Part shown: piece after piece, positions 1,432 to 27,081 of the stretch
Layout: every line of letters begins with the position of its first letter
Position numbering within the stretch: position 1 is the first letter of the stretch
Assembly: GCF_019913785.1 (NCBI RefSeq)
Contig: NZ_JAIOHK010000028.1
Coordinates: forward strand, 1 to 64,000
Source: Altibacter sp.
GTDB taxonomy: Bacteria > Bacteroidota > Bacteroidia > Flavobacteriales > Flavobacteriaceae
DNA length: 64,000 nucleotides
Reading direction: 5' to 3'
Made by a program: the position numbers and the translations under genes
The notes under the pieces: generated by a model
Databases searched by the model: none
The model's input: the letters and a program-made list of their open reading frames with translations, nothing else
What the model was told of the DNA's origin: nothing

Positions 1432-4400
1432 ATGATTAACAAAATCATTTCATTTTCCATTAATAATAAATTTATTATTGGGCTGTTTATAGTGACACTT
1501 GTTGGCACGGGCATTTATTCTATGGCCACTATAAATTTGGGTTCTGTACCCGATATTACCAATAATCAAGTACAAGTTATTACCGTTGCCCCAAATTTAG
1601 GTACGGAAGATATTGAGCAATTTGTAACCTACCCAGTAGAATTGGCAATGGCAAACCTTCCTGACGTTATCGAACTGCGTTCCGTTTCTCGTTTTGGTCT
1701 TTCTGTAGTTACCATAGTCTTTAAGGACGAGGCAGGCACTTATCTTCCCCGGCAATTGGTACAAGAGAAATTAACCGAAGTTGCAGGAGAAATCCCCGAA
1801 GGTTTTGGTACGCCATTTATGGCGCCAATTACCACAGGACTGGGCGAAATCTACCAGTACACCTTAAAATTAAAAGAAGGCTACGAAGATAAATACGATG
1901 CAATGGAGCTTCGTACCATACAGGATTGGATTGTAAAACGCCAAATGGCATTAGTCCCAGGAGTGGTCGAGGTCAATGCTTTTGGAGGCTATGTAAAGCA
2001 GTACGAAGTTGCCATAAACCCTGATAAACTAAAAAGTTTTGGCATTACAATGAATCAGGTCTTTGAGGCCCTTAAAGTCAACAATGCCAACACGGGCGGT
2101 GCTTATATCGAAAAAAACCATCAAGCCAATTTCATTCGAGGTGAAGGTTTGGCTCGTAGCATTGAAGATTTGGAAAACACCGTTGTAACCACACAAAACG
2201 GAAGCCCTGTTTTAGTGCGGGATGTCGCTGAAAAAGTGGGCTACGGGAATCAAGTGCGCTATGGTGCGTTTACCCAAGACGGACACGAAACTGTTGGTGG
2301 ACAAATTTTAATGCTGAAAGGCGAAAGCCCTGGCAACGTGGTAGAAAATGTGGAGAAGCGTATTGTAGAAATTCAAAAATCCCTACCCGAAGGTGTTTAC
2401 ATAGATACGTTTTTAAGTAGAAGTGAACTTATTGGAAGAACCACAAGCACCGTTGAAAAGAATCTTATTGAAGGGTCGCTCATCGTTATTTTTGTTTTGG
2501 TCTTGCTTTTGGGAAGTTTCCGTGGCGGATTGATAACCGCTTCGGTAATTCCGCTATCATTACTCTTTGCGTTTATCTTGATGAAACAATTTGGTGTGTG
2601 GGCAAACTTAATGTCCTTGGGAGCAATCGATTTTGGTATCATCGTGGATGGTGCAGTAATCATTGTGGAAGGAATGGTATTTCACATTCACCAACGGATG
2701 AAAAAATCCAACGCTGTGATAGGTCAGGCCGAAATGGATGAAATCGCCTACGACTCGGCAAGCACGATGATGAATTCGGCATTTTTCGGACAATTGATTA
2801 TCCTTATTGTCTTTACGCCAATTCTCTTTTTAACTGGTATTGAGGGAAAAATGTTCCGTCCAATGGCTTTTACCTTTGGGTTTGCAGTTTTGGGAGCGAT
2901 TATCCTTTGTCTTACGTATGTACCAATGATTTCCTCAATGTTCTTAAAACCTGCTAAAAATCAGAATAGTTGGTTTGCAAAATTTGAAAACAGGATTGAC
3001 AGGTTCAGTGATAAAATAATGTCAGGGTTGAACAGGGCGTATGTGCCCTTGCTCAATTTCGCACTTCGCTTTAGGGCTGGTGTGGTTATAGGCGCGGTTG
3101 CCTTGCTTTTGATTGCAGGATTTATTTTCAGCAATATGGGTGGCGAATTCATACCTAAATTTGATGAGGGAGATATTGCATTTCAGGCCTTGATAAAACC
3201 AGGGAGTAGTCTTACAGAATCTATCGAAGCCTCAAAAAAGCTTCAAAATTTAATCAATGAATTTCCTGAAGTAAAAACAGTGGTTTCAAGGATTGGTGTG
3301 GCTGAAATACCAACAGACCCAATGCCAATGGACATTGCCGATAGCTATATAATTCTTGAAAAGGATAAGAGCAAATGGACTTCCGCAGATAGCAAAGAAG
3401 AACTCATAGAAAAAATACAGGAAAAAATTTCAGTTGTTCCCGGTGTGAATTTCGTGTTTACGCAACCTGTGGAACTTCGTTTTAACGAATTGCTTACTGG
3501 TGTTCGAGAGGACGTGGCCATTAAATTATATGGAGAAGATTTGGGCGTGTTAGCAGATAAGGTACAGGAAATCGCAGCGGTCATCAGAAGCGTTCCCGGA
3601 GCGGCCGACCTCAATGTGGAAGCTACAAGCGGTTTACCACAAATGACTGTGGAATACAATCGTGCAAAAATGGCACAGTACGGTGTGACCGTTGATAAGC
3701 TGAATGATTATGTAAGTGCCGCCTTTTCAGGAGAAGCGGCAGGTGTGATTTTTGAGGGCGAAAAACGCTTTGATGTGGTCATTCGTTTGGCGAAGGACTT
3801 TAGACAGGACATCAACAGTCTTAAGAATTTGTATATCGATTTGCCAAACGGAGCGCAAGTGCCTTTAAAGGAAGTGGCGGACATCAGTTACAAACCCGGA
3901 CCAATGCAGATTTCAAGGGACAATACCTCGCGTCGTATTTCGGTAGGAGTCAATGTTCGTGGGCGAGATGTAAAATCGATGGTCGAGGAAATTCAGCAAA
4001 AACTGGAAACGGAAGTGAAACTGCCACCGGGTTATTTTGTAACCTACGGAGGTTCGTTTGAGAACCTGCAACGTGCTTCAGACCGATTGATGATTGTAGT
4101 GCCTATTGCACTTTTCCTAATATTCATATTGCTCTACTTTGCCTTGAGCTCGTTTTCACAGTCGGTAATGATTTATATGGCAGTGCCTTTGGCAGCCATT
4201 GGTGGCGTGTTTGCCCTTTGGATAAGAGGAATGCCTTTTAGCATTTCAGCTGGGGTTGGTTTTATCGTGCTCTTTGGAGTAGCGGTTTTAAACGGATTGG
4301 TACTGATAAACAAATTCAATGAACTAAAAGAAAGTGGAATGACAGACTTAAAAAAACGCATATACGAGGCAACACACGAACGGTTGCGACCAATTTTGCT

Positions 4401-5847
4401 AACCGCAACGGCGGCCATTATGGGCTTTATGCCAATGGCGATTTCTACCTCTGGCGGTGCCGAAGTGCAGCGGCCATTGGCAACGGTGGTTATTGGTGGA
4501 TTGATAACAGCAACATTTTTAACGCTTGTGGTCGTTCCTGTATTATATTTTTGGCTCGAATCGAGAAAGGAACGAAACAATACTGATGGCGATGTTAGCT
4601 ATGTCAATAAATCAACCAATATTGTAACCGTATTATTGATGGTTGGTGGTTTGATGGCTTCTGGAACTGCTTTTGCCCAAGACACCAATCAAGATGGCAT
4701 AATTCCAAAAACCTTGACAGTCGATGAGGCCATTGCTTTGGCAAAACAGAATTATCCCTCGCTTAAGGAAAGTCAGGCATTTATTGAACGGGAAAAGGCA
4801 CTAAAGGGAACGAGTTTTGACCTTGGTAGCACACAAGTTTTCACGGGCAAAGAAGAATATGGCAATAATCTTCCTGGAGTACAGACAACCGTTGGTGTGC
4901 AACAGGGCAATATTGATTTGCTTTCAGGGTTTTCAAAATCGAAGTTTTACAAAGAGCGTATTGCCTTGGGAGAAAAGTTTTATGTGGCCAGTGAACAACA
5001 ATTGGTGCGCAATGTGATGCAAGCCTATGACCAAATTAATTATTACAAGGCACAGTTGCGTTTTGCAGAACAGCTGGATAGTGTTTATATTAATTTTAGG
5101 GAGGCTGCTGAATTGCGTTATGAAACAGGGGAAACCGGGAAATTGGAATTTATTGCAGCATCTTCGGAATATCAGCAAATACAAGTATTAAAACAACAAG
5201 CCTATGATGATATTGAAATTGCCAAACGTGCTTTAAAACAGTATTTGGGAACGGATGAAAGCATTGAAACGGTGAACGATTTTTACGAGCCATTGGATTT
5301 TATGGCAACTTTGGATTCAACCTCTGTAGCAAACAACCCAATATTGCAATATGCGTTGCAGAACGCCGAAGTAAGTAAAGCAAATGTGGGTGTTGAAAAA
5401 TCGCAATTCCTACCGAAATTCAGTTTATCGTTTGGAAGGCAAGTAGTGGATGATGTTTCTGGATTCAATACCTATCAGGCAGGTATTAGTATTCCGTTGT
5501 GGTTTTTTCCGCAGAAATCGAGGATAAAGGCAGCCAAGGCAGATGCAATGGTCGCAGAAAACCAATATTTGGAACAAAAGGCAACCACCGAAAGCCAGGT
5601 GTCGCAATTGTTCAAATCCCTTGAAAAAACACGGAAAATATTGCAGTATTATGAAGAAGGTGCATTGCTTTTGGCGGAAGAACAGATAACAACCGCAGAA
5701 CTGGCATCTAAAGAGGGCGAAATAGATTACGTCAACTATATTACCATTCTAAATAGCGCCATCCGCATTAAACAGACCCAATTACAATATATCAACCAAT
5801 ACAACCAACAGGCTATCGAGGTACAATACCAATTGGGCAATCTATAA
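1432..5847 (+). CDS. cusA: CusA/CzcA heavy-metal RND pump fused to a TolC-like channel
   Basis: 1471 residues. Residues 1 to about 1045 are a complete HME-type RND transporter with 12 membrane segments; the proton-relay signature DFGIIVDGAVIIVEGM places Asp400, Asp406 and Glu413 in the fourth membrane helix, as in CzcA. Residues about 1063-1083 form a hydrophobic, signal-peptide-like stretch ending in AFAQ, and residues 1085-1471 are a TolC/CusC outer-membrane-factor domain with long alternating helices. Such fusions occur in Bacteroidota metal pumps. The polypeptide would have to span or be cut between the inner and outer membranes. It exports metal cations (Cu/Ag or Zn/Co/Cd; specificity not decidable here) together with the adaptor encoded 17 bp downstream. 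Confidence 0.92.
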   Translation: MINKIISFSINNKFIIGLFIVTLVGTGIYSMATINLGSVPDITNNQVQVITVAPNLGTEDIEQFVTYPVELAMANLPDVIELRSVSRFGLSVVTIVFKDEAGTYLPRQLVQEKLTEVAGEIPEGFGTPFMAPITTGLGEIYQYTLKLKEGYEDKYDAMELRTIQDWIVKRQMALVPGVVEVNAFGGYVKQYEVAINPDKLKSFGITMNQVFEALKVNNANTGGAYIEKNHQANFIRGEGLARSIEDLENTVVTTQNGSPVLVRDVAEKVGYGNQVRYGAFTQDGHETVGGQILMLKGESPGNVVENVEKRIVEIQKSLPEGVYIDTFLSRSELIGRTTSTVEKNLIEGSLIVIFVLVLLLGSFRGGLITASVIPLSLLFAFILMKQFGVWANLMSLGAIDFGIIVDGAVIIVEGMVFHIHQRMKKSNAVIGQAEMDEIAYDSASTMMNSAFFGQLIILIVFTPILFLTGIEGKMFRPMAFTFGFAVLGAIILCLTYVPMISSMFLKPAKNQNSWFAKFENRIDRFSDKIMSGLNRAYVPLLNFALRFRAGVVIGAVALLLIAGFIFSNMGGEFIPKFDEGDIAFQALIKPGSSLTESIEASKKLQNLINEFPEVKTVVSRIGVAEIPTDPMPMDIADSYIILEKDKSKWTSADSKEELIEKIQEKISVVPGVNFVFTQPVELRFNELLTGVREDVAIKLYGEDLGVLADKVQEIAAVIRSVPGAADLNVEATSGLPQMTVEYNRAKMAQYGVTVDKLNDYVSAAFSGEAAGVIFEGEKRFDVVIRLAKDFRQDINSLKNLYIDLPNGAQVPLKEVADISYKPGPMQISRDNTSRRISVGVNVRGRDVKSMVEEIQQKLETEVKLPPGYFVTYGGSFENLQRASDRLMIVVPIALFLIFILLYFALSSFSQSVMIYMAVPLAAIGGVFALWIRGMPFSISAGVGFIVLFGVAVLNGLVLINKFNELKESGMTDLKKRIYEATHERLRPILLTATAAIMGFMPMAISTSGGAEVQRPLATVVIGGLITATFLTLVVVPVLYFWLESRKERNNTDGDVSYVNKSTNIVTVLLMVGGLMASGTAFAQDTNQDGIIPKTLTVDEAIALAKQNYPSLKESQAFIEREKALKGTSFDLGSTQVFTGKEEYGNNLPGVQTTVGVQQGNIDLLSGFSKSKFYKERIALGEKFYVASEQQLVRNVMQAYDQINYYKAQLRFAEQLDSVYINFREAAELRYETGETGKLEFIAASSEYQQIQVLKQQAYDDIEIAKRALKQYLGTDESIETVNDFYEPLDFMATLDSTSVANNPILQYALQNAEVSKANVGVEKSQFLPKFSLSFGRQVVDDVSGFNTYQAGISIPLWFFPQKSRIKAAKADAMVAENQYLEQKATTESQVSQLFKSLEKTRKILQYYEEGALLLAEEQITTAELASKEGEIDYVNYITILNSAIRIKQTQLQYINQYNQQAIEVQYQLGNL

Positions 5848-17193: not shown

Positions 17194-18810
17194 TCATTGT
17201 TCATCCTTAATAAGAGCCTCCATACGATCAAGACGGGCTTCCAGAAGCGTAATTTGTTCTTTTTGACTTTCTATAATCTCCTGTTGCTCCTGGACTGCTT
17301 TCACAAGGGGTACTACAAATTCAGCATAACGTAAACCATAATGAGATTTTGGATTCTTAGGTTTGTCAACACCATGAAAATCGTAGCCAACCAATTCTGC
17401 CGCTTTTTCGACTTCCTGCGCTATAAATCCACTCTGAATTTCAATCGCTTTAAGCCTTTCAGCATCTTTTAATCTCAGTGAATCTGGCGTTTTATTGAAT
17501 TGTGCAATAGCATCCAAATCCAGATTATAGCTTACCGGACGAAGCTTTAAAATAAAATCCAATCCTATTACATTTTCCTTTACATTATTTTTAAACCGAC
17601 CATCTGAAACATTGGACCAATTTGAGTAACCACCAATTGTAGAAACTGATGCATTTCCCAATCGAATTGTATTACTGGCTCCTGGTTCTGCATCATAACC
17701 CAATGCGGTAGAATTGCTAAATGTATTCCCAGTACTAAAAGCTGTATAGCCTATTGCTGTATTGTTAATTCCTGTGGAATTGTAATACTGCGCTTGATTG
17801 CCTATCGCAATGTTGTTATTTCCTGTGGAATTGTTAAAAAGGGATTGATTGCCTATTGCTGTATTGTTATTTCCTGTGGAATTGGCAAAAAGCGCTTGAT
17901 AGCCACTTGCCGTATTCAGAAATCCTGTTGTGTTAGCATAAAGCGATTCTACACCACTTACTGTATTTCTATTACCTGTTGTATTATTGTCAAGCACATC
18001 ATGCCCAATTGCCGTATTACCATACCCTGTTGTGTTGTCATAAAGCGCGTAACTTCCAATTGCTGTATTTCTACTCCCAGTTGTGTTGTAAATAAGCGTA
18101 CTATAGCCTATTGCTGTATTTGTATCCCCTGTTGTATTGTAAGCAAGCGATGAATGACCATAGGCGGTATTTCTATGCCCTGTTGTGTTAGTATAAAGTG
18201 AGAAAGTTCCAATTGCCGAATTAAAAAATCCTGTTGTGTTGTCATAAAGTGATAAATAACCGATTGCCGTATTATAATCTCCCGTAGTATTACTATAAAG
18301 CGATTGATAGCCACTTGCTGTATTGTAATCTCCGGTGGTATTACTATATAGCGATTGATAGCCAATGGCCATGTTATTATTCCCTGTGGTATTGCTATAA
18401 AGTGAGTTATAGCCCACCCCCACATTTTGGTTATTGCTACTGTCATCATATAAGCCTGCATCGATACCTAAAAAGACAGAAGAGCCGTCTTGTGTACCGT
18501 CACTATCAGATTTGCCATCGGTTAAGTCATCTATTTTTTCTACTCCAGCAGAAACTGTATTGAGCGATGCCCAGACGGATCCATCGTAAAACCAGAATCC
18601 GGTTGTATTATTAGTTTGGTATACCAAAAGACCGGTTGCCGGTGAGGCAATGGCGGTGCGTTGCGCTTCGGTCATTCTGGGAACAAGTATTCCGGCATTG
18701 GTACTCACAATGTCTAAGACCGCAGAGGCGTCCGGATTGGTGGTATTGATCCCCACTTGGGCAATAATAATTTGAGAGATTAGTCCAATGAGTAAAAGTG
18801 CTTTTTTCAT
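17194..18810 (-). CDS. Surface protein with YadA-like repeats and S74 autocleaving chaperone domain
   Basis: 538 residues from the ATG at 18810 (MKKALLLIG signal peptide); an in-frame start 29 codons upstream would bury the signal peptide and is rejected. After the module QVGINTTNPDASAVLDI shared with two nearby genes come about 14 repeats of 17 residues (AIGYQSLYSNTTGDYNT type), resembling the head of trimeric autotransporters. Then SDGRFKNNVKENVIG opens a Peptidase S74 / intramolecular chaperone domain; Ser and Lys are spaced as in the catalytic dyad of endosialidase chaperones. The end is a coiled coil (EQQEIIESQKEQITLLEARL). It probably trimerises and may self-cleave. No T9SS domain is present. 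Confidence 0.82.
   Translation of the reverse strand: MKKALLLIGLISQIIIAQVGINTTNPDASAVLDIVSTNAGILVPRMTEAQRTAIASPATGLLVYQTNNTTGFWFYDGSVWASLNTVSAGVEKIDDLTDGKSDSDGTQDGSSVFLGIDAGLYDDSSNNQNVGVGYNSLYSNTTGNNNMAIGYQSLYSNTTGDYNTASGYQSLYSNTTGDYNTAIGYLSLYDNTTGFFNSAIGTFSLYTNTTGHRNTAYGHSSLAYNTTGDTNTAIGYSTLIYNTTGSRNTAIGSYALYDNTTGYGNTAIGHDVLDNNTTGNRNTVSGVESLYANTTGFLNTASGYQALFANSTGNNNTAIGNQSLFNNSTGNNNIAIGNQAQYYNSTGINNTAIGYTAFSTGNTFSNSTALGYDAEPGASNTIRLGNASVSTIGGYSNWSNVSDGRFKNNVKENVIGLDFILKLRPVSYNLDLDAIAQFNKTPDSLRLKDAERLKAIEIQSGFIAQEVEKAAELVGYDFHGVDKPKNPKSHYGLRYAEFVVPLVKAVQEQQEIIESQKEQITLLEARLDRMEALIKDEQ
17720..18435 (-). repeat. 51-bp tandem repeat array within the YadA-like gene
   Basis: About 14 degenerate copies of a 51-bp unit (17 codons, AIGYxSLYxNTTGxxNT). 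Neighbouring copies differ mainly at third positions and two variable residues. The array could change length by recombination. Confidence 0.7.
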
Positions 18811-19040
18811 ATTAAAAAATTTAAAAAGCGGCAGTAGGTGTGTCCTGTGTTTTTTGGTGCAAAAAAAGGCGTTTGAGGATTCCTCTTTATTGTACATCGA
18901 ATAAAAGTCTGAATGTCATCATTTTTAATAAAAAATTATTTCTTATCAAATTCAATAATTTTTTAGGTGAGAGTTATTTTTATTGAAAATAAGCAGAAAT
19001 TAAAGGATTATATTAAAAATAGTTAGCACCTACTATTTAG

Positions 19041-20768
19041 CTATTCAATGATATAAACAGCTCCCGAGTCGGCGGCACTATTATTCCATTGATTACCGTT
19101 TATGCCTGTTGCATTGGAATCTTCACTTGCGGTGCCAATTGCCAAGTATAGTCCATTGCCACTAAGGGAAACAACTCCTACATGATCTCCTGTTTCTGAG
19201 TTGGAGGTCTTTATATAACTTTCCTGTATCCAGGTAGAACCACATCGCGTGTATACATAAACTGCTCCTGAATTGGATGCGCTGTTATTGAACTGATTTC
19301 CATTGATTCCTCTAGCGTTAGAATCTTCCTGATGAGCTCCTACCACCAAACGAGCACCATCACCACTTAGATCCAGATAAGAGCCAAATAGATCAACTGT
19401 CTCTGTGTTAGAGGCTTTAATGTAGGCTTCCTGAGTCCAGGCGCCTGCACTCCTACTAAAAACATAAACTGCTCCAGCATAGGATGCGCTATTATTGGAT
19501 TGGTTTCCATTGATTCCTGTAGCGTTGGAGGCTTCATTCATAGCTCCTACAGCCAAATGGTTTCCGCTATCACTGAGGGATATACTAAAACCAAAACTAT
19601 CACCTACTCCTGTGTTAGAGGCTTTGATATAGGCTCCTTGCGTCCAGGTAGTTCCAATTCGGTTAAAGACATATACAGCCCCTGCATAGGTTGCACTGTT
19701 ATCAGCCTGATTTCCATTGATTCCAGTGGCGTTTGAGGCTTCCCAGCGTGCTCCTACTGCCAAAAGAGTGCCATCACTATTAATGGATAGGTTATTGCCA
19801 AAACTATCACCAGAGCCTGTATTAGAAGCTTTGATATAAGCTTCCTGTGACCAGGTGGTCCCACTTCGGTTAAAGACATATACAGCACCGGCTTGGGTTA
19901 AACTGTTATTGGCCTGATTTCCATTAACCCCGGTAGCGTTAGAGCGTTCATATTGTGCTCCTACTGCCAAACGTGATCCATCATCACTTAGGTCTATATC
20001 AAAACCAAAAGCGTCCGCAGTATCAGGGTTCGAAGCTTTGATATAGGCTTCTTGTGTCCATGTAGTCCCACTCCTGCGAAATATATAGACCGCTCCGGAG
20101 CCGGATACACTATTATTGGATTGGTTTCCATTGACGCCAGTAGCGTTGGAATCTTCACCTGTAGCTCCTACAGCTAATCGTGAACCATCTTCACTTAATT
20201 TCAAACTAAATCCAAAATAATCATTAGATTCTGTGTTCGATGCTTTGATATAGGCTTCCTGAATCCAGATTGCTCCATTTCTTCTGAAAATATAAACGGC
20301 CCCAGAATTGGATGCACTGTTATTGAACTGGTTTCCATTGATACCGGTGGCGTTGGAATCTTCACCTGTAGCTCCTACAGCTAATCGTGAACCATCTTCA
20401 CTGATACTCATAGAACTAAATGAATCACCAGCATTGGTATTGGATGCTTTTATATAGGTTGAAATATTGCTATAATCTGGCCGGTTTACAGTTAAGGAAG
20501 GTGATCCAGAATAATTACAGGTACAAATCCAAGACCCGTTAATACGAAAACAGGTTTGATTTCTGGATAAATCATATACGACCGTTCCATCCAGTGGATT
20601 ATTACCATTGCCATCGGTAACATCTTCAATTTTAGTTACTCTAGGGATGACTAACCCTGAATTCCCAGAACTAATATCTAACATTCCTTTTGGTGCTATA
20701 GTTCCCAAACCCACTTGAGCGGAGAGGCAAAACGGAACAAATAATATAATTATAATATACTTTTTCAT
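19041..20768 (-). CDS. FG-GAP/beta-propeller surface protein
   Basis: 575 residues. A signal peptide (about 1-18) leads to the shared module QVGLGTIAPKGMLDISSG through FRINGSWICT (about 19-84), then seven repeats of about 68 residues with the pattern YIKASNTxxGDSFG, LSxDGSRLAVGAxxEDSNATG, NGNQxNNSxSxSGAVYVF and TWTQEA. The Asp/Asn-rich segments look like calcium-binding FG-GAP blades as in integrin alpha chains, so a closed seven-bladed propeller is likely. No T9SS sorting domain is visible. Its start overlaps the upstream 132-residue gene's stop by 4 bp, so the two are translated together. Function is probably adhesion or surface display. Confidence 0.8.
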   Translation of the reverse strand: MKKYIIIILFVPFCLSAQVGLGTIAPKGMLDISSGNSGLVIPRVTKIEDVTDGNGNNPLDGTVVYDLSRNQTCFRINGSWICTCNYSGSPSLTVNRPDYSNISTYIKASNTNAGDSFSSMSISEDGSRLAVGATGEDSNATGINGNQFNNSASNSGAVYIFRRNGAIWIQEAYIKASNTESNDYFGFSLKLSEDGSRLAVGATGEDSNATGVNGNQSNNSVSGSGAVYIFRRSGTTWTQEAYIKASNPDTADAFGFDIDLSDDGSRLAVGAQYERSNATGVNGNQANNSLTQAGAVYVFNRSGTTWSQEAYIKASNTGSGDSFGNNLSINSDGTLLAVGARWEASNATGINGNQADNSATYAGAVYVFNRIGTTWTQGAYIKASNTGVGDSFGFSISLSDSGNHLAVGAMNEASNATGINGNQSNNSASYAGAVYVFSRSAGAWTQEAYIKASNTETVDLFGSYLDLSGDGARLVVGAHQEDSNARGINGNQFNNSASNSGAVYVYTRCGSTWIQESYIKTSNSETGDHVGVVSLSGNGLYLAIGTASEDSNATGINGNQWNNSAADSGAVYIIE

Positions 20769-21163
20769 TGTTCTATTTCATTCAAGTTAGTAGCATTGTT
20801 TGTTGAGCGGTTTTGAGTGTTTACTTTATTATTTTGTATAACTTGTTCATTAGGATCATTAATGGTTATTGGGGAAGGTGTTGTTGTAGTAATAGCTAAA
20901 CTTGCATCATCCGCAATACAAACCCAAGTATTCGCTATTCTAAAACAAGTTTTACTTCTAGAAATATCATAAACAATGGTTCCGTCTTCTGCCAGTCCTG
21001 CATTATTATTGGTAACGTCTTCCAATTGTGTTACTCTCGGTAAAACCAATCCTAAATTGCTAGAAGTTATGTCTAAAGCTCCTTTGGGGTCCGTAGTTCC
21101 AATTCCAACCTGACCAATGGCGAACTGCGACATTAAAACGAAAATAATAAGTACTTTTTTCAT
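20765..21163 (-). CDS. Short secreted protein consisting mainly of the shared N-terminal module
   Basis: 132 residues: signal peptide (1-18), then QVGIGTTDPKGALDITSS to FRIANTWVCIA (about 19-85), nearly the same as the N-terminal module of the next gene, followed by a Thr/Asn/Gln-rich tail of about 45 residues. It lacks any repeat domain. It could be an independent subunit or capping partner, or the remnant of a larger gene whose repeats were lost. The 4-bp overlap with the FG-GAP gene suggests the arrangement is functional. Confidence 0.7.
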   Translation of the reverse strand: MKKVLIIFVLMSQFAIGQVGIGTTDPKGALDITSSNLGLVLPRVTQLEDVTNNNAGLAEDGTIVYDISRSKTCFRIANTWVCIADDASLAITTTTPSPITINDPNEQVIQNNKVNTQNRSTNNATNLNEIEQ

Positions 21164-21288: not shown

Positions 21289-24200
21289 TTACGCCCTGCG
21301 ATATTTGAAGAAGACAGATAGCACGAAAAGAACTAGTAAACCACCTATGGCCCAATACCACCATGGCGCACCAGCCTCCAATTCTAATGGAGCCGTATTT
21401 CCCATGATCACAAGCCCTGCCCAATATTGCGGTGCCAGTTCTCTTCCATTGGCCGTTGCTAAGTAAGAAAGTTTAGCTTGCTTAAGTGCCTCATCCTTAG
21501 CCATCCCTTCGGCTAGATTATCATAAAAGAAGGCGAGAATTTCGGCACTGGACTTCTCGTCAATCTTCCATAGACTCGTAAGAATACTTTCACTTCCGGC
21601 ATAGGTAAAGGCATGCGCCAGAGAAATCATTCCTTCACCGGCACTATAGGTTGGTTTTCCTGTTTCACAAGCCGTTAAGATGGCCAGATTCGAGCTGAGG
21701 TTCTGATTGTAAATCTCGTACGTATACAGGAAATTATTATCTATGGTTTCTTCAGAAGTGTCTGCTTCCGAAATATTCTTCGCAAAAATCAGGCGGGAAA
21801 GCTCCGGACTTACATTGTTAGATTCGGCATGTGTGCCAATATGTATGATTTTGTGCTCCTTCGCATTTGTAATAAAAACGGATTTGGAAGCTTTCTCATT
21901 TACAAATGAACTACCATCAAAAATTCTAGAATATTCCTTTGCGATATCAACGCTGAAGGGCTGTGGCAGAAGCGTTAAATAATTTTTGTCCAAAGCAACT
22001 GAATCTTTTACCGCAATTATATAATTGTCCTTCATTCCTTTAGAAAACTCAGGGGCAAAGGCAACGAAGTTATCGGAATATACATTTATAGTGGTGCTAC
22101 CACCGTTGTTCAGCAGCAGGCTGAAATTATAAGAAATGGTGTATTTTGCGAGGAGACTATTAGTCGTTAACTCCTTGAAATCTAAAATAGGAGCGGGTGT
22201 TAATAATTCGAAACTTAAATTGTAAAGTTCACGATCGGGGATTATGATAACTTGATTTGTTTGTATGTGTTTATCGAAGGGTTTCCAAAGGACTTCATAA
22301 AGTTGATGTAAGAAAGCGCTAAATTCTTCAACTTCAAAGTTATTGTTCATCAGTTTCGGAATATGATCCTTTACTTGTTCAAATTGTAAGGGATACAAAT
22401 GCTTGTCTTCTTTGGTAACTAGAAATACAAACAGCTTCTCTTCAATAAAGAAGTATCGAACAATCGACGTATTTGAATCTATATTTTGTTGAAGATCGTT
22501 CAAAGATGATTCAATAGTCGCATAACGCATTTTGTAGTATTTCGGGAAATGCTGTTTTAGCGAATCGAGAAAGTGATTCCAGGAAGTGGATGCCTCGAAA
22601 AATGGATCGAACTTTTCATTTGATTGGTCATTAAGCGCAGTAGCGAAATTCTTTTTAAGCTGTTGTTCCTTTTGCAACACGGTTTCAGGAATATCTGCAA
22701 AGGCAATATTATCCCTAATATTGAGGCGTGAGCGTATACGGTTATACATGCTGGATTCATGTATGGTCACTAGATCTAGCATATATTTCTCCTTACCGGT
22801 AATTTCGTAAAGGTCTAGATATAATTGCTTGGCAAAATTGAACAATTCATTATTATCATCTATTAGAATCTGGATATCCTCTGTTGAATTTATAATAGTT
22901 TTACGCCGCTCCAGTATATCAATACCTTCTGCAACTTGAGATAAGAGTTCGTTTAAATCAGCTTCTGTTCGATTATTTTGGAGTTTATATTTAGATTTAG
23001 CATTTATGAGTAAGGAACGGGGTTTGTTAAATTCAATCTGAATGGAATCTGAAAGCGAAGTTGCGGTAAAATTATTCCGGTTGAAGAAATTCAGGGCTTC
23101 TCCACTAAACTGCAAGGCACTGGGGTAGTTTTTTAGTTCAAAATGAACATCGGCCATATTCTGAATATGTGAATAATGTATAAGTGCATTTTGAAAATCT
23201 TGACGCTTCGTGTACCTATATCCGGTTTCCGCCAGCTGCATTGCTTTTTCCGAATCACCGTATTTTGAATAGAACAGAGACATGTTTATGAGTGCATCCA
23301 AGTAATCACTAGAATAGGTCCCATCAAAAGATTGCATAAAGAGCGCCTCACTTTTTTTATACATTTTTGATGCGAGTCCCATTTGCTCTAATGCTTCATA
23401 TACCGATGCTCTAACGGCCAGGATATAGCTGTGTAAATAAGAAAAGTTGCTAGGGTTTTTATCTATGATCTCTAAGGCCTTATCGGCATATTCACCAGCA
23501 GCCTCATAATTTTTTGCGCTTAAATGACCATGACTTAAGATAACTAGTGAGAACACAACATTCGGATCTTCGGGGCCTAATTTTTGAAGTTTTTGAAGGT
23601 AGGAATAATTAAAGATCTCCACCGCCTTATTGTACTCACCCAGACCGTGGTAAAATGTGCCGAGGTTATCGATTGTGGCTAGTCGATAACGGACTGCCCG
23701 TGATTTTTTGGATTCATCCTTGGCTATATCAATAAAATCCTGATAGTTTTCAATAGCCTGTTTAATGAAGGCGATTGCCTCCTTCGTATGTCCAATATTT
23801 TGAAGGTTGAGTGAGATATTGTTTTTCACAATTGCCATCCAATAAAACCGATTCTCCTCAAATTTGTCCATTTCATTCAAAGCGGCGACGGCCTTTTTGT
23901 AATAAATGGTAGAGCTATCAAGTTGCGATTTACTCGCAAAATATCTACCGGTAGAATTATATGTATTGTACAATTCTTGCAAATTTTTCTTCGGTAGCCC
24001 TTCCAAAATGTTTTTCGACTTAAGTAAATGGGGTTTAGCTTCCTCCACATTCCCTAGATTGAGCATTGCAGTACCAATATTGTAATGCAGTGTAGCGATG
24101 AGTCGTTCATCTTTTGGTGTAGCTAGTTTTGCATATTTTAAAGCCTCGAAGGCCACTTCCAAGACCTTGTCGTTTTGTTTTGCACTAAAGTAAATATTGT

Positions 24201-24543
24201 TTAATTGTAGTAAGGCCTTGGCCTTAACAGCTGCAGTTGAGTTTTGAAGTATTATATCAACCAATGAAGAAGCCCCAACAATGGCTGCATTCGAATCTCC
24301 TTCGTTAAGTGTAAGACTGCCCACTAAAGGAATGTAGGCTACAAGTGTATCGTAATTCCCTTGCTTTTTAAACGCCTCAATCTCTGAATATAGTGTTGTA
24401 ATTGCCAGTTCCAGCTTGTTCTGTGCTATTAGGTCTTCAATATATTTTGGGCCTGATGTAACCGAGTTTTGAGCCTGAACAGATAATGTGCCTAACACAA
24501 CAAGCAGCAGTATTGTTCTTAGAGGGCTTGTTCGATTCCACAT
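21289..24543 (-). CDS. Membrane-tethered TPR-CHAT (caspase-like) protein
   Basis: 1084 residues. Signal peptide (about 1-24), an array of tetratricopeptide helices (about 30-560), a helical linker, and a CHAT domain (about 730-1045) with HIGTHAE (His905) and LTACETG (Cys959), the His-Cys dyad of caspase-like CHAT peptidases. A single membrane helix near residues 1060-1078 is followed by KYRRA, so the TPR and CHAT parts should face the periplasm. It is the third gene of an operon with an ECF sigma factor and an anti-sigma-like TPR protein (7 bp gap). The context suggests a signalling protease responding to protein binding on the TPRs. The substrate is unknown. Confidence 0.85.
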   Translation of the reverse strand: MWNRTSPLRTILLLVVLGTLSVQAQNSVTSGPKYIEDLIAQNKLELAITTLYSEIEAFKKQGNYDTLVAYIPLVGSLTLNEGDSNAAIVGASSLVDIILQNSTAAVKAKALLQLNNIYFSAKQNDKVLEVAFEALKYAKLATPKDERLIATLHYNIGTAMLNLGNVEEAKPHLLKSKNILEGLPKKNLQELYNTYNSTGRYFASKSQLDSSTIYYKKAVAALNEMDKFEENRFYWMAIVKNNISLNLQNIGHTKEAIAFIKQAIENYQDFIDIAKDESKKSRAVRYRLATIDNLGTFYHGLGEYNKAVEIFNYSYLQKLQKLGPEDPNVVFSLVILSHGHLSAKNYEAAGEYADKALEIIDKNPSNFSYLHSYILAVRASVYEALEQMGLASKMYKKSEALFMQSFDGTYSSDYLDALINMSLFYSKYGDSEKAMQLAETGYRYTKRQDFQNALIHYSHIQNMADVHFELKNYPSALQFSGEALNFFNRNNFTATSLSDSIQIEFNKPRSLLINAKSKYKLQNNRTEADLNELLSQVAEGIDILERRKTIINSTEDIQILIDDNNELFNFAKQLYLDLYEITGKEKYMLDLVTIHESSMYNRIRSRLNIRDNIAFADIPETVLQKEQQLKKNFATALNDQSNEKFDPFFEASTSWNHFLDSLKQHFPKYYKMRYATIESSLNDLQQNIDSNTSIVRYFFIEEKLFVFLVTKEDKHLYPLQFEQVKDHIPKLMNNNFEVEEFSAFLHQLYEVLWKPFDKHIQTNQVIIIPDRELYNLSFELLTPAPILDFKELTTNSLLAKYTISYNFSLLLNNGGSTTINVYSDNFVAFAPEFSKGMKDNYIIAVKDSVALDKNYLTLLPQPFSVDIAKEYSRIFDGSSFVNEKASKSVFITNAKEHKIIHIGTHAESNNVSPELSRLIFAKNISEADTSEETIDNNFLYTYEIYNQNLSSNLAILTACETGKPTYSAGEGMISLAHAFTYAGSESILTSLWKIDEKSSAEILAFFYDNLAEGMAKDEALKQAKLSYLATANGRELAPQYWAGLVIMGNTAPLELEAGAPWWYWAIGGLLVLFVLSVFFKYRRA

Positions 24544-24550
24544 TATTGTC

Positions 24551-25300
24551 CTATTTTATATCTAACAAAAGTTTAGCGTTTCTTTCAGAAGGATTAGCTT
24601 TAAGCAATTGAGTTGCTTGTTCTGCTTTTCCACTTTTTAATAGCGCTAGTGCACGATAAAAAATGGCATCATTTGTAAAAATACTATTGGGTTGATTACT
24701 TAATTTTTGAAGGTATTCCTCGGCCAAACTACCATTTCCCTTTGCTAGGTAAGAAACGCCTAAAAAGTATTGCAAGGAATCATTCTGTGGTTTTTCCCGA
24801 AGTAGCTTTTCCCACTTGGCAATCGCAAGGTCGTATTCTGCACGTTTATAATTCACCATGGCATCATAAAAATCAAAGTTCGAAGTATTGCTCATGGTGG
24901 TAGGCAAACCGGGATCGGGGATAAAATGTTTTGCAAAAAGTTTTTCAGAAGACGTTTCCGCATTCATAATGTAGAGTACTCCAAAGGCTACAACAAGTAT
25001 GGCTGCAATAGCATAAATTGAAGACTTCGAACGCCTGCGAATTAAAGTACGTTTAGGTGCATCAATAAGTGATGCTTTTGAGTCTTTTATCGACTCGTGA
25101 AAACGTTCTAATTTAGACTTAAGTGCGGCCGTTTCCACAGTTTCAATAAGAAACCGTATTTCGGCTACTTTCTCTTGTAAGCTGGTGTCTTTGGCAAGTT
25201 GTGCTTCAAACTGAACTTTTTCACCGGCATCCATAGTGTGATCCAGATACCTTTCTATGGTTTCCAATTGTTCTATTGTAAAAGTATGTTGTGTGTCCAC
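24551..25300 (-). CDS. Membrane anti-sigma-like protein with periplasmic TPR domain
   Basis: 249 residues. The N-terminal 90 residues are helical and cytoplasmic (ending in the basic RTLIRRRSKSS), residues 95-112 are one membrane helix, and the periplasmic part (about 120-249) has TPR-like helices (YDLAIAKWEKLLREKP, DSLQYFLGVSYLAKGN, DAIFYRALALLKSGK). The order after an ECF sigma factor with an 8-bp gap, and the topology, fit a transmembrane anti-sigma factor. A canonical zinc-binding HxxxCxxC motif is missing, so the sigma-binding mode is different or the role is only adaptor-like. Its TPRs could contact those of the CHAT protein. Confidence 0.78.
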   Translation of the reverse strand: MDTQHTFTIEQLETIERYLDHTMDAGEKVQFEAQLAKDTSLQEKVAEIRFLIETVETAALKSKLERFHESIKDSKASLIDAPKRTLIRRRSKSSIYAIAAILVVAFGVLYIMNAETSSEKLFAKHFIPDPGLPTTMSNTSNFDFYDAMVNYKRAEYDLAIAKWEKLLREKPQNDSLQYFLGVSYLAKGNGSLAEEYLQKLSNQPNSIFTNDAIFYRALALLKSGKAEQATQLLKANPSERNAKLLLDIK

Positions 25301-25308
25301 TGTATATT

Positions 25309-25887
25309 TTAATTTGGGGTTTTTACCAACCTACGCAATTTTTGCATACATCGGTATTTTTTGTTTCTGGCGGAAGCCTCGTCAATACCTAAAGTTTGCG
25401 CTATTTCCCGCATCGACTTTTTTTGGTAATAAAACTGCATTAAAAGTTGTTTGCACGAATCTCCCATATCGTTGAATACGCTCATTGCGTCTTGCATCAA
25501 AACACCGGATGTCCAATTCAAGTTTTCAGTTTCGCTTTCAATTTCTTCACTTGACACGGTATTTAAAGGGTGTAAGGAAATGGTCTTTTTATATTGTGAA
25601 GAACGAAGAAAGTCTGTCCATTTGTTCTTTGCAATTTGGTACAGATATCCTTGAATGGCGGTTTCGCTCTGCGGAATAAATTTATCATCCTTAACGTTTT
25701 TCCAAACCGCTATAAATGCTTCCTGATAAATGTCTTTGGCATGGGGAATCGTACCATTGTTTTTTAGAATATGCATTTCCACTTTCCTGAAATTATCTTG
25801 ATATAATTTTTTCAACACAAACTCATTGTTATTCTTAATTGCTTCAATTATCTGAAACTGTTTTTCTATGTGTTGTCTTTCCCCCAT
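25309..25887 (-). CDS. ECF-type RNA polymerase sigma factor
   Basis: 192 residues with sigma region 2 (DIYQEAFIAVWKNV, then QGYLYQIAKNKWTDFLR, about residues 50-105) and region 4 (CKQLLMQFYYQKKSMREIAQTLGIDEASARNKKYRCMQKLRRL, about 140-187) with its helix-turn-helix. It heads the operon with the anti-sigma-like TPR gene and the TPR-CHAT gene. A near-match -7 box (TACCTTTC on the minus strand, 25902-25909) sits 15 bp before its ATG. It probably directs transcription of an envelope-related regulon; the adjacent surface-protein genes are candidate targets by position only. Confidence 0.88.
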   Translation of the reverse strand: MGERQHIEKQFQIIEAIKNNNEFVLKKLYQDNFRKVEMHILKNNGTIPHAKDIYQEAFIAVWKNVKDDKFIPQSETAIQGYLYQIAKNKWTDFLRSSQYKKTISLHPLNTVSSEEIESETENLNWTSGVLMQDAMSVFNDMGDSCKQLLMQFYYQKKSMREIAQTLGIDEASARNKKYRCMQKLRRLVKTPN

Positions 25888-25920: not shown

Positions 25921-27081
25921 TTATTTCTCCACTGCAAATTTGGTCCAGTCTGTATTGTTAGTTGCGTTATTGATGTTTGGATCGAATAAAGCATTGTCCG
26001 TTCCAATGTATTTTCCATCGTTGTTTACCCAATAAAAATTGCTCCCCGATGTTACATTGTAGTGCTCCCCGGTTTCATGATTTCCTATCACGGCCGTTTC
26101 TGTCAACATATTAATTGTTTTTTGATGACCCTTTTCCTGGATATTACTACGGCTCAAATATCCTTCGTGCATTATATCTAATATATCGCTGTTGGTTTTC
26201 CCCGCCTCTAAGCTAGCTTGACCTCTTGCTGCTATGGCCTGCATGCGCTGTTGGTGTGCAGCAGCACTTTTTGCAGAGGCATCTGCCCAAAAATTATTGG
26301 TGCGTTGTATGTCCCCCATCAACTTGCCATTGGCGTATGCAACCCATTGTGGATTGATTTGGGTATTGGCCCATGAATATAAATACGCATTTTTGGCTTC
26401 ATCAAAATATGCAGGAGAAGTTTCCATCTCTGATGTCTGTACGATCCAAACCATGGATTGGGATGTAACGGTTTCCATTTTCGACAAAACAATGAATGAT
26501 TTTGTACCATTAGGGGTATTCCATTCTGTGCCTATAGTTTCAATTTTTCGTTGGGAGCCGGTGTTGGGCATTCCAGCGGTGAACTTTTGCCAAAAACCGT
26601 CTACTTCGGGCAAGGGATAGCTATTAATGAGGCTGTAGCCCTGTGACTGGGCGCTTGGCAAAATATTTTGTTGAAGTATTTGTTGAGTGTTCATAGGGGC
26701 CGCTAATGTCTGACCGCTCATTTGTATGGTCTGTTGCATAAAGGGATCATTGGACCAGGCAAAATTGTTGGTCTGGGTTTGGTAGATTTTTAACCCATTT
26801 GGGCCTTCTATATAAACAGGGGCGTTGGGACCGTTTACCTTCCAACTATTTGGAATGGGGGAGCGGGCTTGGACCATTCCGTTTTGCGGATCTCTTATTT
26901 CATGAAACTTTGTTTTTTCGACACTTGCCATTCCTTTATCAAATAATGTTTTTACATTTTCTATTGAAGAATTATCCCCTTGCGCATCATTTTTGGATAC
27001 ATCGTTTTCAGATTGTTTAGCATCCATACAGCCTTGTAAGGTGATGCAAGTAATGATTAATGTGAATATTAGATATTTCAT
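25921..27081 (-). CDS. Lipoprotein of unknown function
   Basis: 386 residues with a lipoprotein signal peptide (ITLQGC lipobox, Cys near residue 18). The mature part has a Gln/Asn/Trp-rich middle (QTQTNNFAWSNDPFMQQTI; QMSGQTLAAPMNTQQILQQ), a helical segment near residues 270-300 (AHQQRMQAIAARGQASLEAG) and a C-terminal beta segment (HYNVTSGSNFYWVNNDGKYIG). No family is recognised with confidence. It lies upstream of the sigma/CHAT operon on the same strand but 33 bp before it, so separate transcription is possible. It is probably a periplasmic or surface lipoprotein. Confidence 0.7.
   Translation of the reverse strand: MKYLIFTLIITCITLQGCMDAKQSENDVSKNDAQGDNSSIENVKTLFDKGMASVEKTKFHEIRDPQNGMVQARSPIPNSWKVNGPNAPVYIEGPNGLKIYQTQTNNFAWSNDPFMQQTIQMSGQTLAAPMNTQQILQQNILPSAQSQGYSLINSYPLPEVDGFWQKFTAGMPNTGSQRKIETIGTEWNTPNGTKSFIVLSKMETVTSQSMVWIVQTSEMETSPAYFDEAKNAYLYSWANTQINPQWVAYANGKLMGDIQRTNNFWADASAKSAAAHQQRMQAIAARGQASLEAGKTNSDILDIMHEGYLSRSNIQEKGHQKTINMLTETAVIGNHETGEHYNVTSGSNFYWVNNDGKYIGTDNALFDPNINNATNNTDWTKFAVEK

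Follow-up and report, generated by a model that had tools for sequence, protein, structure and literature searches.

The window analysed here, a 64,000-nucleotide stretch of the genome of a marine Altibacter sp. (assembly GCF_019913785.1, contig NZ_JAIOHK010000028.1, positions 1 to 64,000), carries genes for a sigma factor, an anti-sigma-like membrane protein and a TPR-CHAT protease, in which tetratricopeptide repeats (TPRs) accompany a CHAT domain. All lie, with the parts described below, on the minus strand, and the transcription order runs from a predicted lipoprotein gene (25921–27081, 386 residues, LQGC lipobox in the sequence), ending 33 bp upstream of the sigma factor, through the sigma factor (25309–25887, 192 residues) and the anti-sigma-like protein (24551–25300, 249 residues, GTG start) to the protease (21289–24543, 1084 residues). 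The gaps are 8 bp between sigma factor and anti-sigma and 7 bp between anti-sigma and CHAT gene, and both the open reading frames (ORFs) and the spacing are as an initial annotation, made from the sequence alone, had described them. The 192-residue protein falls within the extracytoplasmic function (ECF) sigma factors by its match to the sigma70-ECF profile TIGR02937 (70.2 bits, cut-off 42.9) and also matches Pfam Sigma70_r2 (34.9 bits, cut-off 24). The CHAT gene is the single CHAT match in the whole genome (2.98 Mb in 85 contigs); a PADLOC run gave weak matches only.

The 1084-residue protein belongs to the CHAT family of clan CD by profile (Pfam CHAT, 135.8 bits, cut-off 24), with an additional match to TPR_12, and its CHAT domain (PF12770, E 2.7e-39) covers residues 744–1049 (21397–22314). 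Its AlphaFold2 (AF2) model is of good quality (pLDDT 86.9, pTM 0.78), and the best solved folds for the domain are Csx29, whose chains rank first by structure (Z up to 28), and separase (5fby, Z 26.2, root-mean-square deviation 2.9 over 304 residues). Profiles were compared with solved structures using both the whole protein, for which TPR proteins are among the matches listed, and the CHAT domain alone. The His905/Cys959 dyad named initially is found at just those residues (codons 21829–21831 and 21667–21669), and alignment shows His901, His905 and Cys959 invariant in 109/109 distinct CHAT domains, a His/Cys dyad in a caspase-like fold. Both ends of the protein are hydrophobic, as also foreseen: a predicted signal peptide at residues about 1–25 (24469–24543; hydrophobic segment 6–24 ending VQA/QN), with similar N-termini in most relatives, and a predicted C-terminal transmembrane (TM) anchor at residues 1061–1079 with a basic tail (21307–21363; hydropathy 1.94, helix 1061–1083 in the model). 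Similar N- and C-terminal ends occur in most of 68 CHAT proteins, a count that includes the window protein and two repeats; L077, L080, L083 and L084 have no clear C-terminal anchor, and that of several others is weak.

The 249-residue protein was examined by ORF call, Pfam, hydropathy, AF2 modelling (pLDDT 89, pTM 0.59) and a 20-sequence alignment. It matches Pfam TPR_19 (28.1 bits, cut-off 25) and scores far under the cut-off of the NCBIfam anti-sigma profile (20.9 bits against 100), so that we call it an anti-sigma because of the gene layout. A single TM segment at residues 94–112 (24965–25021; hydropathy 2.44, helix 93–113 in the model) is preceded by basic residues, and hydropathy and model together predict an RseA-like layout of a cytoplasmic N-terminal part, one TM helix and a periplasmic part with the TPRs. 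There is no cysteine in the sequence, which rules out a zinc-binding anti-sigma domain of the usual kind. Given the signal peptide and C-terminal TM segment of the CHAT protein and the basic residues ahead of the anti-sigma TM segment, one expects both the CHAT protein and the TPR-bearing portion of the anti-sigma to be periplasmic and tethered to the inner membrane. That the protease lies outside the membrane had been suggested in the initial annotation, and the predicted topology recurs in most relatives looked at.

Gene order was surveyed in 249 Flavobacteriaceae genomes, with orthologues defined as matches to the window CHAT at E below 1e-180. A CHAT match is present in 118 of these genomes and a window-CHAT orthologue in 34, all of which are among the 39 that carry a window-class anti-sigma (over 200 bits). 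The order sigma/anti-sigma/CHAT, whose recurrence in relatives had been put forward as a check, is kept in 32 of the 34 (in one, G041, the CHAT gene is a pseudogene with six stops), and the linkage is therefore more than chance. In the remaining two, G024 (Aequorivita) and G218 (same genus label), sigma factor and anti-sigma lie elsewhere (L112, L113), and both partners, together with the juxtamembrane motif described below, persist apart from each other; loss of the sigma/anti-sigma pair in Aequorivita was considered and discarded once the pair had been located. In other CHAT classes the pair is often convergent or divergent. An anti-sigma of the same family is found at 24/30 short loci of the best CHAT matches, in 46/60 fetched regions and in 27/39 regions not chosen as orthologues, and some loci that have no adjacent anti-sigma have one about 4–10 kb off. 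Across the class Bacteroidia, 123/346 genomes hold an anti-sigma match at E below 1e-12, a figure that includes matches to the TPR part only. Duplications also occur, with two tandem CHAT genes at L052 (G042) and two complete sigma/anti-sigma/CHAT sets, one with a diverged motif, in G301 (L119/L120).

The motif DPGLPTTMS, residues 129–137 of the anti-sigma (24890–24916), is our candidate cleavage site, with a proposed cut after Met136. In the AF2 model residues 126–138 form a coil between the juxtamembrane helix 117–125 and the first TPR helix 139–152, the longest coil of the periplasmic part, and Asp129, Gly131, Leu132, Pro133, Thr134 and Met136 are invariant in 20 CHAT-linked window-class anti-sigmas. 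At the DNA level the pattern DPG[LF]PT has one match in the 2.98 Mb genome, in the anti-sigma gene. In the other classes Arg closes the corresponding stretch, with Gly or Ser after it in nearly every case (exceptions are R-D in L087 and R-N in L094), while the residues before it vary (e.g. PNTVYTITR-S, PIERG, LPSLVTRG, SLTVRGD). Met136 would thus be the P1 residue in the window protein, as inferred from the sequences, and another bond within the motif is possible.

Natural losses of the protease bear directly on the motif. A wider search of 397 genomes found window-class anti-sigmas in 51, amounting to 52 distinct sequences. The pattern D.GLP..M[SG] is present in 42/42 anti-sigmas beside an intact CHAT gene, including the second copy in G301 (DVGLPLKM), in 2/2 with the CHAT gene in trans, in 1/1 beside the CHAT pseudogene and in 1/1 where the CHAT gene runs off the contig; it is absent from 5/5 anti-sigmas without a window-class CHAT, and from one beside a CHAT remnant (Met to Ile). 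In the five proteins without a window-class CHAT 14/35 motif residues are kept, as against 127/150 other conserved residues (Fisher p 2e-7, kinship ignored). Three of their genomes (G105, G033, G045) have CHATs of other classes. In a tree, L116 groups with the CHAT-bearing L118 (99/98) and the other four sequences without a window-class CHAT fall in a separate clade (96/84), so that the tree reads as at least two losses of CHAT. Similar flanking genes of about 325 and 125 residues, judged by length only, border L104, L106, L110, L124, L114–L116 and L131, among which are loci with all three genes, without CHAT, with the anti-sigma only or with a CHAT fragment only, which may reflect successive losses at a single position.

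Co-variation between the P1-like residue and the CHAT domain was examined in 109 distinct CHAT domains (46 window-class, 63 others), of which 92 could be paired with an anti-sigma (P1 Arg 46, Met 44, Lys 1, Gln 1) and the other 17 were left out. One anti-sigma (L052) is counted with two tandem CHATs, P1 was assigned with hand-set patterns for four pairs (L073, L095, L087, L083), and in some pairs the pattern took an earlier ‘YRN’ rather than the ‘VRG/ERG’ site, both giving Arg. Three CHAT positions separate the classes. At 867 the window-class domains have Leu, Val or Ile (Thr in one) and 61/63 of the others have Glu; at 957 the window class has Thr in 46/46, the others Ser in 60/63; and at 996 the window class has Glu in 46/46, the others Asp in 61/63. 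Two of the others depart from Glu at 867, L073 with Lys and L095 with Asp; at 957 and 996 both carry Asp and Glu, respectively, and in their anti-sigmas Q-G and K-G stand where others have R-[GS]. A second set of 20 loci, picked class-wide by anti-sigma match after the rule had been seen, gave 11 pairs (the anti-sigmas of L149 and L150 taken from the ORF list): four M types (867 being Leu, Ala, Thr and Thr), six R types all with Glu867, and an L type, DPGLPTTL-G, with Leu867 and Asp996. The R-type L159 (genome G619) belongs to the window’s own family. Over all 103 distinct pairs, P1 Arg goes with Glu867 in 52/52 and P1 Met, Leu, Lys or Gln with a residue other than Glu in 51/51.

The same positions emerge from a scan of all conserved columns. 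With a conservation cut-off of 93% in R pairs, 28 CHAT columns qualify; both K/Q pairs differ at three of them (867, 957 and 996), each of which also belongs to the five that differ in M pairs (hypergeometric p 0.003). Lowering the cut-off to 90% gives 33 columns, four of them different in both K/Q pairs and all four within the seven that differ in M pairs (p 0.0009). On the anti-sigma side 10 columns reach 90% conservation, and of these the P1 Arg alone is changed in both K/Q rows; at 80% it is one of three such columns out of 26. The aligned P1 Arg column is kept in 44/45 distinct R rows (L083 dropped beforehand), the miss probably being L087, with its Arg shifted. A FastTree tree built without these columns requires three R/non-R changes and an equal number at 867. 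The M types make up a single clade (1.0), which the L type joins with low support, and L073 and L095 lie among the R types on weak forks.

Placed on the window protein, the three positions are Ile867 (codon 21943–21945), Thr957 (21673–21675) and Glu996 (21556–21558). In the model, residue 867 lies in helix 862–874 between core strands 824–830 and 878–881, ahead of the second core strand; 957 is two residues ahead of the catalytic Cys; and 996 follows strand 986–990, the SLW motif and conserved Trp992. According to a review of clan CD structures (PMC4357240), S1 specificity is set by three regions, alpha1 (or L1), L4 and L5, with Arg87/Gln184/Arg233 in caspase-7 and Asp365/Asp462/Glu500 in MALT1 as examples, and in separase an invariant Asp binds the P1 Arg (PMC10317155). 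Positions 867, 957 and 996 appear to fall within these three S1-forming elements, having been placed by the order of strands and helices in the model rather than by distance. The ‘Cys-2’ parallel for 957 uses what we take to be the catalytic Cys numbers of caspase-7 and MALT1.

Taken together, these observations make it probable that the locus encodes a regulated-proteolysis circuit across the inner membrane, in which the CHAT protease cuts the anti-sigma and so frees the ECF sigma factor. The cut itself had been raised as a possibility in the initial annotation, and good though indirect support for it now comes from the agreement of all 103 pairs at position 867 and from a motif that is broken in all five anti-sigmas without a window-class CHAT. 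In this circuit the cytoplasmic N-terminal part of the anti-sigma would hold the sigma factor, and the exported TPR-CHAT protein would sit next to it, anchored by its C-terminal TM segment. A signal, perhaps perceived through the TPRs of CHAT or through some partner protein, the neighbouring lipoprotein for instance, would trigger cleavage of the exposed stretch between the TM segment and the first TPR, most likely after Met136 in the window lineage and after Arg in most others, as the co-variation suggests. By analogy with RseA-type systems this would be the site-1 cut, after which a site-2 protease and cytoplasmic proteases would free the sigma factor. The genome encodes one M50 peptidase (PF02163, 162.7 bits) that qualifies as a site-2 protease by family, the family being general (14/14 control genomes).

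Conservation and loss of the motif would fit binding as well as cleavage, so that the CHAT protein might dock on it without cutting, either releasing the sigma factor by an induced change or acting as a co-sensor. We regard this as improbable, as His905 and Cys959 are kept in every distinct CHAT domain, and as the positions that co-vary belong to the S1 region of the protease and to a single anti-sigma residue, usually before Gly or Ser, as for a scissile bond. A CHAT protein that is an output of the sigma factor, linked to it because the sigma factor transcribes CHAT, and whose true substrates are other envelope proteins, would suit the convergent and divergent arrangements, the separate lipoprotein neighbours of some CHATs and the distance between CHAT and the pair in Aequorivita; it is nevertheless unlikely, for neither erosion of the motif without CHAT nor residue-level co-variation with the anti-sigma would be expected from it, and the DPG[LF]PT pattern is unique to the anti-sigma gene.

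Several observations weigh against cleavage by CHAT. The switch to the M type is a single event on a long branch and the tree forks are weak, so that only two or three independent co-switches carry the co-variation argument; moreover, the sole L-type pair keeps Asp996 and one M-type pair keeps Ser957. Csx29 has Glu at the 867 column (in a weak HMMER alignment) yet cuts near Met427, and the Glu867 rule is not simply transferable to it. Among the loci, 14/60 fetched CHAT regions have no same-family anti-sigma in the stretch, and G148, G045 and G116 keep an anti-sigma beside which no sigma gene was found and whose CHAT orthologue is gone. L151, L154, L155, L156, L160 and L164 (the last with a motif stretch ending K-G) have an anti-sigma without CHAT in the stretch and two or more CHATs elsewhere in the genome. 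Finally, part of the motif survives in three genomes where CHAT was not found, as DPGLP lacking M-[SG] in G715 and G569 and as SIRG in G651. Such retention could mean that another periplasmic protease cuts the juxtamembrane stretch and that CHAT only shares the locus, which we think very improbable, since the agreement between 867 and the P1-like residue in 103/103 distinct pairs would be left unexplained.

Turning to the neighbouring genes, homologues of the window lipoprotein occur at the same locus in several relatives, and a crude pattern picks out predicted lipoprotein genes ahead of the sigma factor at many window-class loci, or ahead of CHAT if the pair lies elsewhere (21 listed). These loci include L035–L037, L032, L045, L049, L098 and L122, and some of the proteins differ in length and sequence; the lipoprotein slot may be conserved more than the protein itself. 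An automated search for lipoprotein genes immediately ahead of CHAT gave a weak result (3/46 window-class and 8/30 other CHATs, background 10.6% of 1149 ORFs). In the convergent class, L060, L067 and L075 have lipoprotein-like proteins of about 200 residues, proline-rich before CxC, encoded just upstream of CHAT, which are possible CHAT partners or substrates. L081, L082, L096, L097, L144 and L145 form a separate CHAT class with a gene of about 650 residues upstream and, where checked, sigma factor and anti-sigma about 4–10 kb off; downstream in L082 are an aspartyl-protease-like gene of 150 residues and a response regulator, both named from sequence. Within the window itself, three exported-looking proteins are encoded downstream of CHAT (17194–21163), one bearing FG-GAP repeats and another an S74 chaperone domain along with many near-identical repeats, and a 1471-residue ORF (1432–5847) fuses an AcrB-type resistance-nodulation-division (RND) pump to an outer-membrane efflux protein (OEP) domain.

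A close known parallel is Craspase, the type III-E CASP system, whose locus likewise joins a TPR-CHAT protease (Csx29), a sigma inhibitor as its substrate (Csx30) and a sigma gene (CASP-sigma), a likeness that for the window system rests on co-variation. PMC10028731 gives Csx30 as an inhibitor of an ECF-like sigma factor, cut by Csx29 between residues 427 and 429, with deletion of Met427 stopping the cut. Csx29, however, works in a complex with an RNA-guided effector, and target RNA switches it, whereas the window CHAT has a predicted signal peptide and membrane anchor and its presumed inhibitor spans the membrane. A Pfam scan of the 28 window proteins found no Cas family, the genome not having been searched for Cas7-11, and because of this and the signal peptide we do not file the window system under Craspase. 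Together with the C-terminal TM segment, the signal peptide also speaks against a complex with the effector Cas7-11. With RseA-DegS-RseP it shares a membrane-spanning inhibitor, a proposed outer-face cut near the TM segment and an M50 peptidase in the genome, but the proposed site-1 protease is a caspase-like cysteine protease and the anti-sigma has no cysteine.

CHAT also occurs in an anti-sigma system in DdvA (PDB 8rot and 8rw5, ‘transmembrane anti-sigma factor’, with a chain called CHAT domain-containing), by name the anti-sigma of the ECF sigma factor DdvS of Myxococcus xanthus (PMC4374960). There one chain appears, from the titles, to hold both CHAT and anti-sigma, while the window encodes them separately, a stop codon and 7 bp parting the two genes. 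ECF54 sigma factors have CHAT neighbours and no anti-sigma (PMC8999054), and the window differs from them in the anti-sigma-like gene between sigma factor and CHAT. Separase (C50) similarly combines a TPR-like part with a caspase-like protease and has Arg at P1 of its substrates, but is eukaryotic and cuts cohesin. No description of the three-gene set was found in the literature searched, whose coverage leaves many journals outside. The window system is best called a variant of regulated anti-sigma proteolysis, Craspase-like but apparently outside the membrane.

To our knowledge, it is not known what most bacterial TPR-CHAT proteases cut; for the window protease a substrate is predicted down to the bond, together with a specificity rule open to test by single-residue changes and with natural CHAT losses as ready-made controls. 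The data moderately favour a still broader proposal, that there is a class-wide set of periplasmic separase/caspase-like site-1 proteases paired with TPR anti-sigmas, in which S1 pocket and P1 co-evolve (Arg at P1 with Glu867, Met or Leu with an uncharged 867, Gln or Lys with Lys or Asp867) and scissile bond and specificity would be readable from sequence, a non-CRISPR envelope counterpart of Craspase. If true, the ECF sigma factors of Bacteroidia would have a caspase-like site-1 protease, and Craspase would be one of a wider set of TPR-CHAT proteases acting on sigma inhibitors.

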